Source of the DNA: Malania oleifera
Taxonomy: Eukaryota; Streptophyta; Magnoliopsida; Santalales; Ximeniaceae
DNA length: 64,000 bases
Direction: 5' to 3'
Assembly: GCF_029873635.1 (NCBI RefSeq)
Contig: NC_080423.1
Location: forward strand, 106,191,988-106,255,987
Shown: positions 17,778 through 52,300 of the stretch, piece after piece
How positions within the stretch are numbered: the first letter of the stretch is position 1
Layout of the letters: the number at the start of each line of letters is the position of its first letter
Translations under genes and position numbers: made by a program
The notes under the pieces: model-generated
Seen by the model: only the letters and a program-made list of their open reading frames with translations
The model's database searches: none
What the model was told of the DNA's origin: nothing

Positions 17778-18929
17778 CTAGAAACTTCCAAGGTTAACTA
17801 AGTTCGAACAATGTTCAAACTTGGATTTAGGTACTACTTTAGTCATCATATCCAAAGGATTATCTTCCGTTAGAATTTTTCTTACTTCTATTTCTCCACT
17901 AGAAATAATATCTCTCACAAAATGCAGCCTAACATCTATATGTTTGGACCTATCATGATAAACATGATTCCTAGCCAAATGAATAGTGCTTTGATTGTCA
18001 CAATAAATTGTAACGGCTCCACTATACATTCCTAACTCTAGGCATAGTCCTTTTATCCATATAGCCTCCTTAAAGGCTTCAGTCATGGCAATATATTCAA
18101 CCTCCGTGGTAGACAAGGCTACCACCGACTGCATGTGAGATTTCCAACTAATAGCACTACCTAAAAAACAAAAGACCATACTAGACAAAGTACCATGCAA
18201 GAAAGCAGTTTTAACATCAAGTTGTTCCAAATGCAAGTCATGTACAACAACAAAGGATAATAGAATTCTAATAGAACTATGCCTCACAACAGGGGAAAAT
18301 ATTTCATTATAGTGTACCCCTTCCCTTTGTGTAAATCCCTTAGCCACTAACCTAGCTTTATACCTAGGTGGTTCAACTCTAGGGATTCCCTCTTTCCTCT
18401 TAAAGATCCACTTGGATCCTATGAGTTTTTGTTTTTCTGGTCCAGGTACCATCACCCATGTCTCATTTTTGTTTAGAGACTCCATTTCTTTTTGCATTGC
18501 AAGAATCCATTTTTCAGCCTCTTTACTATCCATGGCCTCTCTAAAAGTCCTAGGCTCCACCTCAATTTCTGTTTCAGCAACAGAAAGAGCAAACGCTGTC
18601 ATATCAGCTTCCCCATACCTTTGAGGAGGTCTTATGACCCTCCTCTCCCTATCCCATGCTAGAAGGTAAGTTTTACTTAATTCAAAGGTTTCCGTTTCTG
18701 AGTTTTGCTTCTCAAAAACTGCAGCATCTGTTTCTAAAAGGCTATGAGAAGTGAAGGGATGCTCCACCTCAAGCTGCAGGTCACTAGTATCAAAGTGTCT
18801 AACAGTCTGAATGTATGTAATCAAGAGTTTGTTTTGTGGTGTGAGTGGACTTCTTAAAACTAACCCTAGTAGACTTACCCAAGACACACTCCTCACAAAA
18901 TGACAATTCCTCAAGTTTCCTATCTCCAA
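17778..18929 (-). pseudogene. Reverse transcriptase and RNase H regions of Copia fossil
   Basis: Fossil part. The right half shows the Copia reverse transcriptase start ([50 protein letters not shown]). The left half shows the RNase H part ([43 protein letters not shown]). Broken. Confidence 0.9.
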
Positions 18930-19002
18930 GGAGCCTCTATTTCTCCAGCTCCTTTAGGCCCTGTAGGCGAACATGTCCTAGCCTACTATGCCACAAGGAA
19001 AC

Positions 19003-20181
19003 CTAATTTTCTACCCTGTGATTGATAGGTGAAGCCTCACCCATCACTGTCTTTCCTACCAAGGTGTACAGCCCATTCTTTAGTACCCCTTTCATTACTA
19101 CCAGTGAACCTCTACAAACTTTTAGGCTACCTCCTTCAGACTTAAACGTGTACCCTGTCTTATCTAAGCTACCCAGAGAAATCAAGTTTCTCTTCAGCTC
19201 AGGTATGTACTTGACATCTCTTAGCACTCTCTACATCCCATCATGCATTAGAAGTCTCATAGTCCCTATACCCTGTATTTTACATGACTTATTGTTTCCT
19301 AGGATAACATGATCTCCTTCTAAGCATGTAAAGGACTCAAACTAGTTTTTCAATGGACACATGTGGAAGGAATATCCTGAATCTAATATCCATTCTTTTC
19401 CTGAATCTCTATCAGAGACATTTAACACTTCCGCACTATCATACCCATCTAAAACTACAGCTGCCTTACCCTTTGATTCAGAGGTGGTGGCATTTGCACC
19501 ATTTTTCCTCTCAGGGCAATCCCTCTTAAAATGTCATTCCTTGTGACATGCATAACACTTTAGTGCCTTGCTTTTAGACTTTGATCTAGACCTCTTGTCT
19601 TTTCCTTTCTCGTTCCTCTTTTCAGACCTACCTCTTACATTTAACCCTTCCCCTGACCCTAATTTAGACTCAAACTTAGTGTGCAATTCCCTAGAGTGCA
19701 AAATAGCTTGCACATCTTCTAAAGTCAGCCTCTCTCTCCCATACATCATAGTTTCTTTAATATGGTCATATGTGGAATCAAGAGAACTTAAAAAAAGAAT
19801 TGCCTGGTCTTCTTCATCTATACTAATATCAATATTAGCAAGATTCAAAAGAATTTTATTAAATTCATCTAAATGTTCATCAATTGATGTTCCAGGGGTC
19901 ATTCTAAAGGTATAGAGTCTAGTCTTCTTATGGAGTCTATTTGCTAAGGATTTTGTCATGTACAAACTCTCTAGTTTTAACCACACTCCAGCTGCCGTAT
20001 CCTCATTGGCAACTTCCCTAAGCACTTTGTCTCCTAAGGACAAGATAATGGCACTATGTGCCTTTTGAAGAATTTCGGGCTTCACTTTGTCGGTGGAGGG
20101 AAAATCTTGTTTCCCCTCTTGTGAAGTGGATGCTCCCTTCTTTTCTCCAAGAAGAGCCTCCCCAAGCCTCTGCTGTACCAA
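19003..20181 (-). pseudogene. gag and pre-integrase regions of Copia fossil
   Basis: Fossil part. 19,534-20,181 reads as Copia gag (LYTFRMTPGTSIDEHLDEFN, LSSLDSTYDHIKETMMYGRE) ending at a zinc-knuckle start (CYACHKE). 19,003-19,227 reads as the protease/pre-integrase junction (LKRNLISLGSLDKTGYTFKS). Broken. Confidence 0.88.
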
Positions 20182-20455
20182 GATGGCATCTTAATCCTCC
20201 ACAAACCAAAGTCATTCTTTCCGGTGAATTTTTCTATTTCAAACCTAGCGGTCCTCATCACATAGCCAGGCTTGAAACTCCAACATAACCATACTAAAAT
20301 GCCTAACATAACATATTTCACTTACCTAACTGACTGGGAGGCTCGCCTTTAACTCTATCCTCACGCCCTCGACGTACCAATCTTTAAATATTGCAATAAT
20401 ACATTTATACAAATTTCCTAGTGAATCATTGAATTTCTCAGAAAATTATCCACTC

Positions 20456-22350: not shown

Positions 22351-22429
22351 TTTACTGGTATAATAATAAAAAATTTCGATTTCATTTATGCCTTTGTATC
22401 CGACTTGATTCATTTTGCAGTCTCTAGAG

Positions 22430-23358
22430 GAGTTTTTTACCAAAATATTAAAAGAAAAAAAATCAAAAAACACAAATATGAAGAAAATTGAAAAAATTTA
22501 CACAAATGTACCCAACCAACTTTCTAAAAGTCGGTTTGGGCTTTAAAAAAAAAAAGTCAGCCGCAATTCTTGACTGTCAAATTTAAAAAAAGTTAAAAAT
22601 TGATAACCGACTTTCCAAAAACCGGTTTGGGCTTTAAAATTTTTTAAAAAAATCTGCCTCAATTCTTGATTGCTAAAATAAAAAATAAAATAAAATTGAG
22701 AACCAACTTTTCAAAAGTCACCCCCCAAAAACCAAATCCCAAACGCCCACCCAAAATCAAATAATAAAATATATATATATTTTAATTTAAATAATAATAA
22801 TAAATATATTATTTTTCAAATTTTAAGATTTAAATAAAAATTTGTAAATAAAAAAATATTTTTAAGTGTCATCTAATATAAAAAATATTTTCTACTTTTT
22901 ATTTATTTTTCAAATGAATTAAAAAAAATAAATTAATTTTTTAATTTCAAAATATAATATAAAAATGAATACAATAGCAAAAAAATTTACTTTTAAGAAT
23001 AATAAGACAAAAATGACATCTTACTTCCTAATTACATAAAAAAAATTATTTAAAAAAACTAACTTCCATTTTTTTCCCAAAATAGAAAATTTGTCTCTAA
23101 TTTTAATTAATCTTTCATTTCCCCACTATTCTACTTTTTTTTTCGAACCAAATAGGACCAATGTACTACAATGGAATCTATCATCTCTTCTACCAGTACA
23201 GTCCGAAGGGAGCTGTGTGGGGCAACATCATTTGGGTTCACTCCATCTCCAAGGATCTCATCAATTGGGTCACCCTTGACCCGACCATCTACCCGTCCAA
23301 GCCCTTCGACATAAATGGGTGTTAGTCTGAATCTGCCACCATCCTCCCGAGCAACAAA
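22430..23358. repeat. Left arm of the invertase-bearing inverted repeat
   Basis: Pairs with 24,366-25,276. Outer blocks include CAAATGTACCCAACCA and the twice-occurring GACTTT-CAAAA/GGTTTGGGC motifs; the inner end is invertase coding sequence. By eye the coding parts of the two arms agree at roughly 90% of positions. Confidence 0.8.
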
Positions 23359-23769
23359 CCCGTCATCCTCTACACCAGACTCGACTCTTAGAACAGGAAG
23401 GTCCAGAACTACGCCGTACTCGCTAACCTAACTGATCCGTATCTTCGTAAATGGATTAAACCCGACGACAACCTCTTTGTGGTTCCCACCCCGAACATGA
23501 ACACGAGCGCGTTCCATGACCTGACCACTGGCTGGATCGACCAAGACGAGCATTGGAGAATGGTCGTCGGCAGCCGAAGGAAGTACATGGGAATGACCTA
23601 CTTATACCAAAGCAGAGATTTCGTGAATTGGGTCAAGGCGAAGCACCCACTCCACTCTACTACGAAAACCGAAATGTGCGAATGCCCAAATTTTTACCCA
23701 ATTGTGGTGCGCGGGTGGTACGGGTTGGACACATCAGTGATAGAAGAACACGTGAAGCACGTGTTATAA
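23151..23769 (+). pseudogene. Cell-wall invertase (GH32 beta-fructofuranosidase) exon fragment, decayed
   Basis: Cell-wall invertases split apoplastic sucrose into glucose and fructose. The + strand reads [98 protein letters not shown], then ECPNFYPI and GLDTSV, following the family order without a gap. It starts just after an AG acceptor exactly where the large third exon of these genes starts, so the NDPNG nucleophile region (exons 1-2) is absent. In-frame TAG stops occur at 23,323-23,325 (after INGC, where the family has GCWSGS) and 23,389-23,391. The RDP motif reads HDL, and the acid/base region WECPDF reads CECPNF. It ends at TAA soon after VKHVL. It cannot encode an enzyme; it is passenger DNA of the surrounding fold-back element. 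Confidence 0.92.
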
Positions 23770-24365
23770 TTTTTTTATTTCACTATATTTTTCTTCCATT
23801 ATTTCATTCTAATTGTTTTTTGTGCCCAGATTTTTGTGTAAGTTTTTTGTTTTTTTTTTTTATAATCCAAACTGACTTTTGAAAAATCTGTTAGGTAAGA
23901 AATATTAAATTTAAAATTTTCCTATATAAAATATACATAAAATAGTATGTTAAATAAATTTTCCATTCTTAATTATATATTAAATAATATTTTTTGTGTA
24001 ATTAAAAAGTAAAATGTCATTTTTTGCCTTAATATTCCTAAAAGTAAATTATTTCAAATTTTTTTGTTATTGTATTCATTTTTATATGATTTTTTGAAAT
24101 TAAAAAATTAACTTACTTTTTTTAATTCATTTGAAAAATAAATAAAATGTAAAAAATATTTTTTTATTAAATGGCACTTAAAAATAATATTTTTATTTAA
24201 AACTTTTTATTTAAATATTAAAAATTTAAAAATAATATATATTTCATTATTATTTAAATTAAAAAAAAAATTTATGATTCCTACTTTCAAGGGGGGAGGC
24301 AAGGGCAGAACTGGGGGGGGGGGGGGATTTGATTTGGGGGGGAGGGAGGGAGGGGCAGAACATGG

Positions 24366-24577
24366 GGAACGAATTTGTTGCTCGGGAGGATGGTGGCAGA
24401 TCTAGACTAGCACTCATTTATGTCGAAGGGTTTGGACGGGTGGATGGTTGGGTCAAGGGTGACCCAGTTGATGAGGTCCTTGGAGATGGAGTGAGTCCAA
24501 ACGATGTTGCTCCACACAACTCCCTTTCAGACTGTATTGGTAGAAGATATGATAGATTCCATTGTAATACATTGGTC
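24366..24577 (-). pseudogene. Inverted partial copy of the invertase exon
   Basis: The - strand repeats the first ~205 bp of the fragment above (from the AG acceptor and ACCAATGTATTACAATGGAA through AGATCTGCCACCATCCTCC), with roughly 18 differences by eye. It faces the sense copy 1 kb away, so one transcript crossing both would fold into a coding-sequence hairpin. Being diverged from each other, the two copies were probably created well before the present. Confidence 0.88.
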
Positions 24578-25276
24578 CTATTTGGTTCGAAGGAAAAGTA
24601 GAATAGTGGGGAAAGGAAAGATAATTAAAATTAGAGATAGATTTTCTATTTTGAGAAAAAAATGGAAGTTGGTTTTGTTTAAATAATTTTTTTATGTAAT
24701 TAGGAAGTAAATTATCCTTTCTGTCTTATTATTCTTAAAAGTAAATTATGTTAATTTTTTTGTTATTGTATTCCTTTTTATATCATATTTTGAAATTAAA
24801 AAATTAATTTACTTTTTTAAATTCATTTGAAAAATAAACAAAAAGTAGAAAAAAATTTTTGTATAAAAATATTTTTTATTTACAAATTTTTATTTAAATC
24901 TTAAAATTTGAAAAATAATATATTTTTATTATTATTTAAATTAAAAATAATATATATTTTATTATTTAATTTTAGGTGAGGGGTTGGGATTTGGTTTTTG
25001 GGGGTGGGGTGACTTTTGAAAGGTCGGTTCTCAATTTTATTTATTTTTTATTTTGATAGTCAAGAATTGCGGCTGACTTTTTTTTTTTTTTAACCTAAAT
25101 CTACTTTTGGAAAGTCGATTATTAATTTTTAACTTTTTTTTTATTTTGAAGTCAAGAATTGCGGCTGACTTTTTTTTTTTTCTAAAAGCCCAAACTGGTT
25201 GGGTACATTTGTGAAAATTTTTTCAATTTCTTTCGTGTTTTTTAATTTTTTCTTTTAATATTTTTGCAAAAAACTT
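24366..25276. repeat. Right arm of the invertase-bearing inverted repeat
   Basis: Inverted copy of 22,430-23,358. Its inner end (24,366-24,577) is the reverse complement of the first ~205 bp of the invertase fragment. A (G)n run (24,313-24,326) and GGAGG repeats sit just inside it. Confidence 0.8.
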
Positions 25277-25286
25277 GTCTCTGCAG

Positions 25287-25382: not shown

Positions 25383-25480
25383 CTCAAGCTTTGAGTTTTT
25401 TCCCGTTTTATAATTAAAAGTATATAAAATATAAAATAATACTCTGAACAGGGAATTTTTTCCCAAAATAATGCTCACGT

Positions 25481-25871
25481 AATCTCGCAGCTTCATGCTG
25501 CGAAATTTAAACTGGTGGCCACTCCGCCATCGACGCGTGGCAAAGAACGAAGCAGGGGTAACGTGACGCGTGGCGGCGGGTGAATAAATCTTGCAGGTCG
25601 AACCTGCGAGATTTCAGAAGGGAGCGAACGGTGAGGCGACACGTGGTAAATCTCGCAGGTCGAACCTGCGAGATTTCAGAAGGGAGCGAACGGGGAGGCG
25701 ACGCGTGGCTGGTGATTCAGAAGGGAGCGAACGGTGAGGCGACACGTGGTAAATCTCGCAGGTCGAACCTGCGAGATTTCAGAAGGGAGCGAACGGGGAG
25801 GCGATGCGTGGCTGGTGAATGACGTGCTACTTGACACGTGTTGAATCTCGCAGGTTGGACCTGCGAGATTT
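25481..25871. repeat. Palindrome array, left arm
   Basis: Copies at 25,586-25,614, 25,648-25,676, 25,751-25,779 and 25,844-25,871 read AAATCTCGCAGGT, a 2-3-base centre, then ACCTGCGAGATTT. A degenerate first copy lies at 25,481-25,508. Spacers are near-identical blocks containing CAGAAGGGAGCGAACGG and G-box or MluI-like cores (ACACGTGG, ACGCGTGG). Confidence 0.92.
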
Positions 25872-28563: not shown

Positions 28564-32651
<4,088 letters not shown>

Positions 32652-49300: not shown

Positions 49301-52300
49301 TCATTGTGGATGTTATGTTTCTATGCTTTAATGTTAGGACCCTGTGAGCAATTAGAAAAATATGACATCAAAAATTTAATGTGGTTCGGTCAATATCAAC
49401 CTACATTCACGGAACACACCACAAATTCACTATTCACTGAAAAAATACAACTGACTTCTTCCTCTCACTCTCTTTCTTCTCTCTACTTTCTGAGTTTCTC
49501 TTGTACTCTCTTGTGCATTTCACATCTCTCCATAGCTTTCTATTTATAGGGTTTTAGAATTAATTACACAATTAAATACAATTAAATCAAAAGGAGAAGT
49601 TTTATTCGTTTAAATTAAATGATGGATAAATGTTGGATAACTGTTCCAGCTTGCAATAGCCCTTCACACGTCTCCAACTCAGCTTCTAGCTTTAGTTATA
49701 TCTCCTGTCCCTAGCTACAACAATCTCTCACTTGGAAACAGAGACCTCAACTAGTATCATGAATAAATGATGTGCTCAAAATATGTTTTCAGGTATGAAA
49801 ACCAACTGAAGTTGAACATTACGTGTTGCCGAGAAGATTTCCTAAGCTCTGGTACTGGAGTAGGAGGTGGTGGTGCAACAATCTGCTCCACATGTTCCTC
49901 TACCCGAGGAATCTCAGTATTCTACTTAGGATTTTCGATTTTCTGCTGATGTGTCCTTACACCTCCTAAAACATCATCCACATTTACAAAGGTTGTTTCA
50001 GACTCTATAGATTCTGTTGTGTCTTTGTACATCACAATTTCATCAAAAATCACATCTTTGCTTCTGATAACCTTTTTGTTTTCATCATCTCAAATGCGGT
50101 ACCCATATTCATCTCCACCATAACCGACGAAAGTTCATTTTCGGGATTTCGGATTCAGCTTATTCCTGACATGATCATTGATATGTACATATGCAACACA
50201 ACCAAAAATTTTCAAATGTGAAAGTCTTACCTCTTCGTTACTCAAAACTTCTTCTGGTAGATTATAGTCCAATGGTACTAATGGACTCTTGTTAATCAAA
50301 TAAGTTGCTGTGTTGACTATTTCTGCCCAAAACATGTTTGGCAAGTCTGATTGCATAGGCATGTTTTTGGTTTTTTTTGTTAACGTTCTGTTCATCCGCT
50401 TGGCTACGCCATTGTGTTGAAGCAGACCTGACACAGTTTTTTCCATTCTGATACTATGCTCATAGCATAATTTCTTGAACTCGGTGTCAACATATTCTCT
50501 ACCGTTATTTGTTCTCAGCTTCTTGATTTTCAAACTAGTTTCGTTTTCTACCATCGCTTTCCAAATTTTAAAAGCATAAAAAACATCAGATTTATACTTC
50601 AGGAAGTAAACTCATACCTTCCGTGAATGATCATCGATAAGCGTGACGAAGTAATGTTTTTCTCGTGTGGACGAAATGATTGTTGGTCCCCATACATCTG
50701 AATGGATTAGCTTAAGTCTCTCTTTTTTCGGGGTATTGATGTTTGTTTGGAAACGGACTCTCTTCTGTTTTTCAAATATGCAATCCTCACATGTGTTAAT
50801 CTTCACCGTCTGTAAATCACTCAACTTACCCTTTGAGTGCATTACCCTGAGTCCCTTCTCACTCAAGTGTTCGAGTCGTTGGTGCCATAAGTAGCTATCA
50901 TCATTTTCTGTAGCAATTGTAATAGACATACATGCATCAGGAGTTACATAAAGAGTATTACTTTTCTTACCTCGAGCAATTGTTAATGCACCCTTCGAAA
51001 TCTTCCATTCATCACCAATGAAAGATGTGTTATATCTTTCATCTGCCAATTGACCAACTGAGATCAAATTCTTGCTCAGGTCTGGAATATACCTAACATC
51101 TCTCAGTTTTCATATTGACCTATTTATTTTGATCATCACTATCCCCTTATCGGTAATGTTATAAGGTTGATTATTGCCCAAATATATTTTACCGAAATTA
51201 CCTGATGTATACTCTTCTAGGCAATCTCTACTGCAAGTACCATGGAATGAAGCTCAAGAATCTAACACCCAAGACTTCTTTTTGCTTTCTAAAGAGTAGA
51301 TCAACAAATCATGTTTTTTTGAAGCAACATTTGCTTCTGTTTTTGCCCTTGTATCGTATTCTTTCTTTTGACTTTTGCACTGGTTTTTGTAATGACCAGT
51401 TTTTCCACAGTTCTAGTACTCAATAATTTTTGTGCGTTGGGAACCTATGTCCTGAGAACCTCTGGGATTTTTGGATTTAGATTGCCTGGGCCTATATCTG
51501 CCGTGGTGGTTTGATCGTCCATGCCTATTTCCTTTGCCTCGACTCTCCATGTTCAAGGCTGAACTTGAAGTGGAGTCATGGTTTGATTCAATTTCGATTT
51601 CTTTTGTCAAAATCATGCTGACGACCTCATTGTATACAAGTTTTGATTTTCCTGCGGAGCTACTAATGGCAGTAACAACATTATTCCAACTTTCGGGCAA
51701 CTGACTGAGAATCAGTAGGACACAAATTTCATTATCAAACGTTATCTCGACTGAGGCGAGTTGATCCGACAACTCGTTGAAATTATTCAAATGCCTGTTG
51801 AAACTTTCACTTGCAGACATGCTCATAGTAAATAATCTTTTCATGAGATGTACCTTATTTGCGGCTGAAGGCTGCTCTTACATATTAGAGAGCGCATCCA
51901 TCAGAGACTTGGTGGATGATATATGCTTGATATTGAACGTCACAGACTTTGACAACGTCATTCTGATGGCTCCGAGAGCTTTTTGATCAAGCAACTCCCA
52001 CTTGTCCTCGTTCATAGATGCTGGCTTACCTTCCAATGGTAAGTGCAATTCTTTTTCAAATAAATAATCTTCAATCTGCATTTTCCAGAAACTAAAATTG
52101 TTGCCATTGAACATTTTGATTTTTGAGTTCTTTTCGTTTGACATCTCGATTTGTTGATTTATAGATGGAATTAGCTCAAATGGATAGCACGGTTGGTTCT
52201 GGAACGATTGAAAACCTTAGAAATGGTTTAAGTCGCTCGAAAAACAGACCCAAAACGACTCCGAAAAGCTTGATCAAAGTTTAAGTCAAGCCTAGTCAAA

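Follow-up and report, generated by a model that had tools for sequence, protein, structure and literature searches.

The window analysed here, a stretch of 64,000 nucleotides from the 1.49-Gb genome of Malania oleifera (NCBI RefSeq assembly GCF_029873635.1, contig NC_080423.1; G000:C7:106,191,988-106,255,987), contains at positions 22,430-25,276 a transposable element that carries a piece of an invertase gene in the sense orientation and part of the same piece again in antisense. The element belongs to a multi-copy family, which is very probably a non-autonomous, Pack-MULE-type group of Mutator-like elements (MULEs), one end of which was rebuilt from the opposite end, and whose members then multiplied, were methylated and are now decaying, the hairpins being a side effect of this rebuilding. 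According to this scenario, an ancestor would have picked up ~0.7 kb of genomic sequence from a cell-wall-type invertase gene, comprising the last part of intron 2 and some of exon 3, before multiplying. Some lineages would later have exchanged their right end for an inverted duplicate of the left one, and since this duplicate extended 125-229 bases into the fragment, exon sequence would have been drawn into the terminal inverted repeat (TIR). Two hairpin subfamilies would have multiplied subsequently, and the host would have methylated the copies, which would by now be in decay. Any small RNA made from the hairpins would most likely feed the silencing of the family itself.

The preliminary description of this locus had placed the element edges at the same positions and had proposed a transposon laid out as a hairpin RNA gene directed against cell-wall invertase, with the exon fragment framed by inverted arms of ~700 bp. 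The hairpin layout is borne out: the inverted repeat can be aligned, it is flanked by a 10-bp repeat identical at eight of ten positions, and the same anatomy is found in other copies. The arms are also real, but they do not merely frame the fragment; because homology runs unbroken from the termini through the captured intron into the exon, fragment, intron part and arms form one inverted repeat of ~0.9 kb. The left and right arms are identical at 545 of 588 aligned bases (plus 73 gap columns), the two intron parts at 80 of 86, and the sense and antisense exon parts at 189 of 209 (90.4%, in good agreement with the ~90% formerly estimated by eye). With its longest inverted blocks measuring 160 nt at 82% and 158 nt at 90% complementarity, and with the same anatomy recurring elsewhere, the repeat cannot be ascribed to chance. 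The sense exon piece, reported to span 23,151-23,769, is present and starts at 23,155, its homology to the gene stopping near 23,763, and the inverted copy reported at 24,366-24,577 starts at 24,369. Features missing from the preliminary description are the intron part, a G-rich spacer, a truncated extra copy of the arm and the existence of a multi-copy family. The extra arm contains blocks complementary to the left arm at 94% and 84%, and in most copies without an antisense part (referred to below as simple) its counterpart runs on to the terminus. Translation of the sense piece reveals two internal stop codons and the replacement of RDP by HDL and of WECPDF by CECPNF, motifs whose functional roles we take to be those familiar from invertases; with these stops and altered conserved motifs, an active invertase enzyme can be rejected. 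When the RNA of the complete element is folded in silico, the antisense block pairs with 219 of the 228 bases in the sense stem (minimum free energy -1303.6), and flipping this block weakens the energy to -1022.6. The window has no match in Rfam at gathering scores.

A unique locus can likewise be rejected, as dozens of copies exist genome-wide. In a DNA search with the 619-base fragment, 40 of the 139 candidates were scored, and these comprised the window copy, 38 others at 87-90% identity and an intact gene at 87%. The GH32 profile (PF00251) yielded 130 matches (129 of the 169 candidates scored), which with a 3-kb gap fall into 92 clusters on 13 chromosomes; six of these are intact exons, and the remaining 86 give a lower bound for the number of places with fragments, though some may be other remains. 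For the comparison of anatomy 38 regions were fetched, which together with the window provide 40 element copies and one gene (L046) on 13 contigs of 86-157 Mb. The copies consist of the one in the window, the best-scoring fragment matches and one neighbour (L011_4792), and are not a random sample; the gene is left out of the copy counts, and a copy of irregular structure (L044, one of the 40) is left out of both hairpin classes. Half of the copies (20/40) are simple, with a left arm (truncated in some), one fragment of ~634 bases and a complete or truncated right arm, the arms being ~0.6-0.7 kb long. In eleven copies, including that in the window, the initial 223-229 bases of the fragment occur a second time in antisense (the window-type hairpin), and eight have 125-140 bases in antisense behind a different spacer (the second-type hairpin), these lengths being counted from 23,136, i.e. 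19 bases before the exon. The limits of the fragment are common to the copies. With up to three mismatches allowed, the window-type junction pattern was found at 11 places in the genome, which become 12 with the window copy itself, whose junction is too divergent for the pattern, and the second-type pattern at 21 places. The private spacer of the second type (~120 bp; ~3,780-3,900 in L045) gave 23 matches among 23 candidates, one of them partial.

Some copies occur close together. Two adjoin or are nested in each other's arms in opposite orientation in L013 (C10:20,507,721-20,516,139), two others in the same orientation in L011 (C12:33,021,304-33,027,722), and four second-type junctions lie inside 180 kb at C10:22.66-22.84 Mb, where two with an identical pattern are ~8 kb apart, which suggests local duplication.

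The family was assigned to the Mutator-like elements because of its target-site duplications (TSDs) of the 10-bp type and its long TIRs. Both termini were recognised in 26 copies (the other 14, the window copy among them, were omitted from the test), and 14 of these carry a TSD that reaches the threshold: ten perfect 10-mers (one of which is offset by one base), two perfect 9-mers and two duplications with one mismatch. None of the 650 flank pairs taken from different copies did so. The predominant length of 10 bp falls within the 7-12 bp given for Mutator-like TSDs (PMC9168764, in excerpt), and the family combines it with the other traits of Pack-MULEs, namely TIRs of ~0.6-0.9 kb bounding a fragment of a host gene. 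The genome contains 135 occurrences of the terminal 24-mer with at most one mismatch. Among the termini listed, one (L056, C3:36.58 Mb) sits 3.8 kb from a match to the MULE transposase (PF10551), which was found among the 150 of 1008 MULE candidates that were scored and contains one in-frame TAG; 106 terminal bases of L056 are 76% alike to the end of the invertase-element family. An autonomous partner is therefore only suggested, since L056 displays one related terminus and no second end was found there.

The intact gene appears to be a complete cell-wall-type invertase gene, whose frames look like exon 1 (HFQPPKHWIN), the DPN mini-exon, exon 3 and the exons that follow; we assume here the usual names of the invertase motifs and the cell-wall reading of its WECPDF. 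Its exon 3 matches the GH32 profile with 329.5 bits, and its best solved relatives by sequence are invertases and beta-fructofuranosidases, including the insoluble isoenzyme CWINV1. The window fragment is 86.6% identical to this gene over 628 bases (from 23,136), compared with 67-75% over 83-540 bases for five other intact exons, so that one gene lies above the ~80% under which the preliminary description had considered pairing too weak. With the intron part included, identity to the gene amounts to 84.9% for the sense arm of the window copy (722 columns) and to 83.2% for its antisense arm (304 columns); when the exon part is taken by itself, the sense arm agrees at 189 and the antisense arm at 179 of 210 columns. 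Since the end of intron 2 is kept in the fragment, genomic DNA rather than spliced RNA was captured, and a retrocopy can be rejected. The family majority differs from the gene by 30 synonymous changes at 136 sites and 22 non-synonymous changes at 482 sites, a pattern suggesting that much of the divergence between gene and family arose under purifying selection. For this reason the true donor may be a gene other than L046, either a different paralogue or one that has been lost. Four further exon matches (L052-L055) are 83-87% identical to the window copy and 85-87% to the gene; they were rejected as donors and are read as further copies, because they match the window copy no better than the gene does and two of them (L052 and L053) adjoin second-type junctions.

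How often the hairpin form arose was considered on the basis of trees of fragments and of arms. In the fragment tree, whose bootstrap values had not settled, the window-type copies, all 11 of them, group in a single clade (91/94), and all eight second-type copies fall into another (100/99) together with the irregular L044 and the simple copy L037. The right arm of L037 is uninterrupted, and this copy most plausibly descends from a hairpin copy whose spacer and antisense part would have been lost through recombination between its two right arms. In the arm tree, from which the cut right arm of L011_4792 was excluded, 8 of the 56 inner branches are well supported. Here the left and right arms of the second type form one clade (97/85), which L037 and L044 join with their left arms; the window-type right arms have no firm placement but lie outside this clade, and the truncated window-type left arm of L015 falls outside its class. 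A single origin, with the second type as a later modification, would account for the left junction and the spacer start that both types have in common: the spacer-start motif (up to three errors) is present in all 19 hairpin copies and in none of the 20 simple ones. Against it speak the separate position of the second-type arms, the unlike inner spacers and fragment breakpoints of the two types, and the rejection, although only just (p 0.049), of a constraint that holds all right arms together. One simple copy (L033) has, by eye, a diverged spacer without antisense exon. Overall, a single origin seems a possible but less probable history, and it is somewhat more likely that the hairpin was formed twice, from a precursor that already had the spacer.

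The present state of the family is marked by cytosine deamination. An excess of C>T and G>A, greatest at CG and CHG sites, is what long methylation leaves, and among the substitutions from the majority in the fragments of the 40 copies 1561 of 2033 (77%) are C>T or G>A, with rates of 0.159 at CG, 0.163 at CHG and 0.064 at CHH, compared with ~0.015 for other kinds of change at the same positions. This footprint, probably caused by long methylation, is seen in simple copies and in both hairpin classes. In the fragment tree the inner branches are short and the end branches long (with a median of 0.064 for the latter), a pattern that fits a burst of transposition; the total divergence overstates the age of the family.

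Such a footprint in all three classes would also be expected if the hairpins chiefly triggered the silencing of their own family, as an analogue of the maize locus Mu killer made by the family itself, with small RNAs from the stem acting against all copies. The stem does include the arms common to the copies, and at CHH sites the antisense arms are slightly, though not significantly, more deaminated than the sense stems in the two hairpin classes (0.081 vs 0.064, p 0.18; 0.070 vs 0.039, p 0.06). However, the difference between stem and loop at CHH sites is no larger in hairpin copies (window-type 0.064 vs 0.050, p 0.19; second type 0.039 vs 0.035, p 0.76) than in simple ones (0.064 vs 0.046, p 0.015), so a hairpin-specific footprint does not emerge, and the idea of stem-specific methylation in hairpin copies was rejected as unsupported, even if the antisense arms leave room for a weak effect. 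As a class, window-type copies resemble simple ones at CHH (0.056 vs 0.053), and second-type copies are less deaminated than these at both CHH (0.036 vs 0.053, p 0.007) and CHG (0.107 vs 0.165, p 0.003). Moreover, simple copies have long arms as well, and plant transposons get methylated without hairpins. In spite of the Mu killer precedent (PMC3440606, in excerpt), we therefore consider this role of the hairpins rather unlikely.

It is possible, judging from the sequences, that the hairpins of the family silence invertase in trans. Transcripts arising by read-through or driven from the element ends would fold and be diced, and the small RNAs would lower the expression of the C1 cell-wall-type invertase gene or methylate it, along the lines of Mu killer or the SULF and YUP loci, with a dosage provided by ~35 loci. 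The arrangement is suitable for this purpose, as an element end is inversely duplicated together with adjacent coding sequence, the exon stem is predicted to pair almost throughout, one intact gene is similar enough, and hairpins are found at 12 + ~23 places genome-wide. Many 21-mers of the window copy match the gene with at most two mismatches, namely 93 of 212 in the antisense arm (none exact, 26 with one mismatch and 67 with two) and 142 of 208 in the sense stem (6 exact, 57 with one and 79 with two). Nevertheless, no 21-mer of the window copy is exact in both arms and the gene (among the 19 hairpin copies such 21-mers number 0 to 4), the antisense arm, taken together with its intron part, is the less similar of the two to the gene, and deamination has affected simple and hairpin copies alike. 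The arms are not maintained together: sense and antisense parts are as similar between elements as within them, both in the first hairpin class (0.892 within vs 0.889 between, permutation p 0.16) and in the other (0.878 vs 0.878, p 0.56), and transitions that preserve wobble pairing are not in excess on either strand in the family (155 vs 148 that break it, p 0.73; 94 vs 74, p 0.14). Thus the family bears no sign of arms kept paired, and in neither hairpin class are the arms kept complementary within the locus, as they would be in a selected hairpin RNA gene. Silencing in trans by present-day copies appears improbable to us, and we give just as little credence to a version set in the past, in which young copies supplied double-stranded RNA precursors at ~35 places, their small RNAs jointly controlled the C1 invertase gene or led to its methylation, and the hairpin was built twice at the same G-rich spot by a recurrent rebuilding of ends that turns captured genes into silencers.

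The preferred explanation, decaying Pack-MULE-type elements with rebuilt ends, also has to face several observations that weigh against it. One element (L013_3294) has arms 0.920 alike, compared with at most 0.894 to any other element of its class. In the + transcript of the window copy alone, 17 transitions preserve wobble pairing and 6 break it, which is the direction expected of a selected transcript; selection on the fold of this transcript was nonetheless rejected, because the family shows no such bias. The slightly higher CHH deamination of the antisense arms is a further point on this side, and silencing while the copies were young would be compatible with the lack of arm co-maintenance. 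As to the family itself, 12 of the 26 copies with both termini have no TSD at the threshold, no autonomous partner with both ends matching was found among the termini listed and the 150 MULE candidates scored, and the anatomy is known from 40 copies, to be compared with 92 clusters. On balance, we infer that a selected regulatory role is absent. A dedicated silencer, as originally envisaged, is difficult to reconcile with an element that has dozens of relatives, half of the examined ones without antisense part, with unpaired evolution of the arms, with the lack of exact antisense 21-mer matches to the gene in the window copy and with the footprint common to all classes; the earlier interpretation is thus supported in part, namely for the layout.

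Coordinates of the parts of the element in the window and its flanking duplications
Feature	Position	Strand	Basis
Left target-site duplication GTCTCTAGAG	22,420-22,429		equals right flank at 8/10 positions
Left arm (terminal inverted repeat proper), AT-rich, begins GAGTTTTTTACC	22,430-23,066	+	alignment to right arm; present again in family copies
End of captured invertase intron 2	23,067-23,154 (left edge approximate)	+	by-eye comparison with intron upstream of exon 3 of L046
Pseudogenised sense fragment captured from invertase exon 3	23,155-23,769	+	translation; match to intact gene
Truncated internal copy of right arm (third arm copy)	~23,850-24,275 (limits approximate)	-	blocks complementary to left arm
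G-rich spacer at hairpin junction	24,276-24,368		spacer motif in hairpin copies
Antisense copy of first 209 bases of captured exon	24,369-24,577	-	alignment to sense copy and intact gene
Captured intron part (~24,578-24,665) and right arm to terminus	24,578-25,276	-	unbroken alignment with 22,430-23,154
Right target-site duplication GTCTCTGCAG	25,277-25,286		equals left flank at 8/10 positions

Other features were noticed in the window. Just to the right of the element, at 25,470-25,871, there are close repeats (62-106 bp spacing) containing the palindrome AATCTCGCAGGTCGAACCTGCGAGATT or its variants, with five 39-nt copies 62-100% identical to the reference. Copia-type retrotransposon pieces occur on the - strand at 174-782, 17,781-20,190 and 50,138-50,611, with gag-pre-integrase/integrase domains, gag and reverse transcriptase domains and an SH3-like polymerase domain, their frames having been searched separately. 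At 29,220-29,621 (+) a stretch resembles the NAD-binding domain of glyceraldehyde-3-phosphate dehydrogenase (30 bits, compared with a Pfam cut-off of 31.7), and is perhaps an exon of a gene of this kind.

Regulatory small RNAs have been proposed to originate from hairpin loci that derive from host genes. In the family described here simple copies, two kinds of hairpins and a probable reverted copy coexist with an intact donor-like gene, and the steps from capture to hairpin can therefore be read; the simple copies could serve as internal controls for the small-RNA consequence of the hairpin. No invertase-carrying hairpin transposon family is described in the literature searched, a scope outside of which most subscription literature lies, and the publications found there on invertase together with Pack-MULEs, judged by title, include none of this kind (PMC4663468 being represented by passages).

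The closest parallels are provided by MULEs of tomato with additional (solo or tandem) TIRs; extended TIRs, as stated in that study, can incorporate sequence that an element has acquired (Ferguson and Jiang 2012, PMC3310237; this and the following papers in excerpt). Like the invertase family, those elements are non-autonomous, possess long TIRs and TSDs, and have an additional TIR copy; some contain a captured gene fragment, and some are multi-copy. What sets the invertase family apart is that part of its fragment is duplicated in inverted orientation, and that its asymmetric hairpin forms with an extra arm have multiplied to 12 + ~23 places, whereas nearly all solo-TIR elements of tomato did not; this multiplication goes against the suggestion, made for tomato, that a MULE whose extra TIR is unpaired would be dead on birth (PMC3310237). 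The incomplete or inverted duplications of protein-coding genes known as SULF in snapdragon and YUP in monkeyflower are comparable in structure, but they are loci that yield small RNAs and affect flower colour, in contrast to a transposon family known from its sequence (PMC12371187). With Mu killer of maize, to which the preliminary description had rightly likened the layout, the family shares TIRs that both derive from one end with adjoining coding sequence, and two partial coding copies that meet as an inverted duplication; Mu killer, however, contains sequence of the transposase gene and is a locus shown to silence, while the invertase elements carry a piece of a host enzyme gene, exist in many copies and are known by their layout (Skibbe et al. 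2012, PMC3440606). The rearrangement is of the Mu killer type and belongs among those of MULEs with extended or additional TIRs (PMC3440606, PMC3310237).

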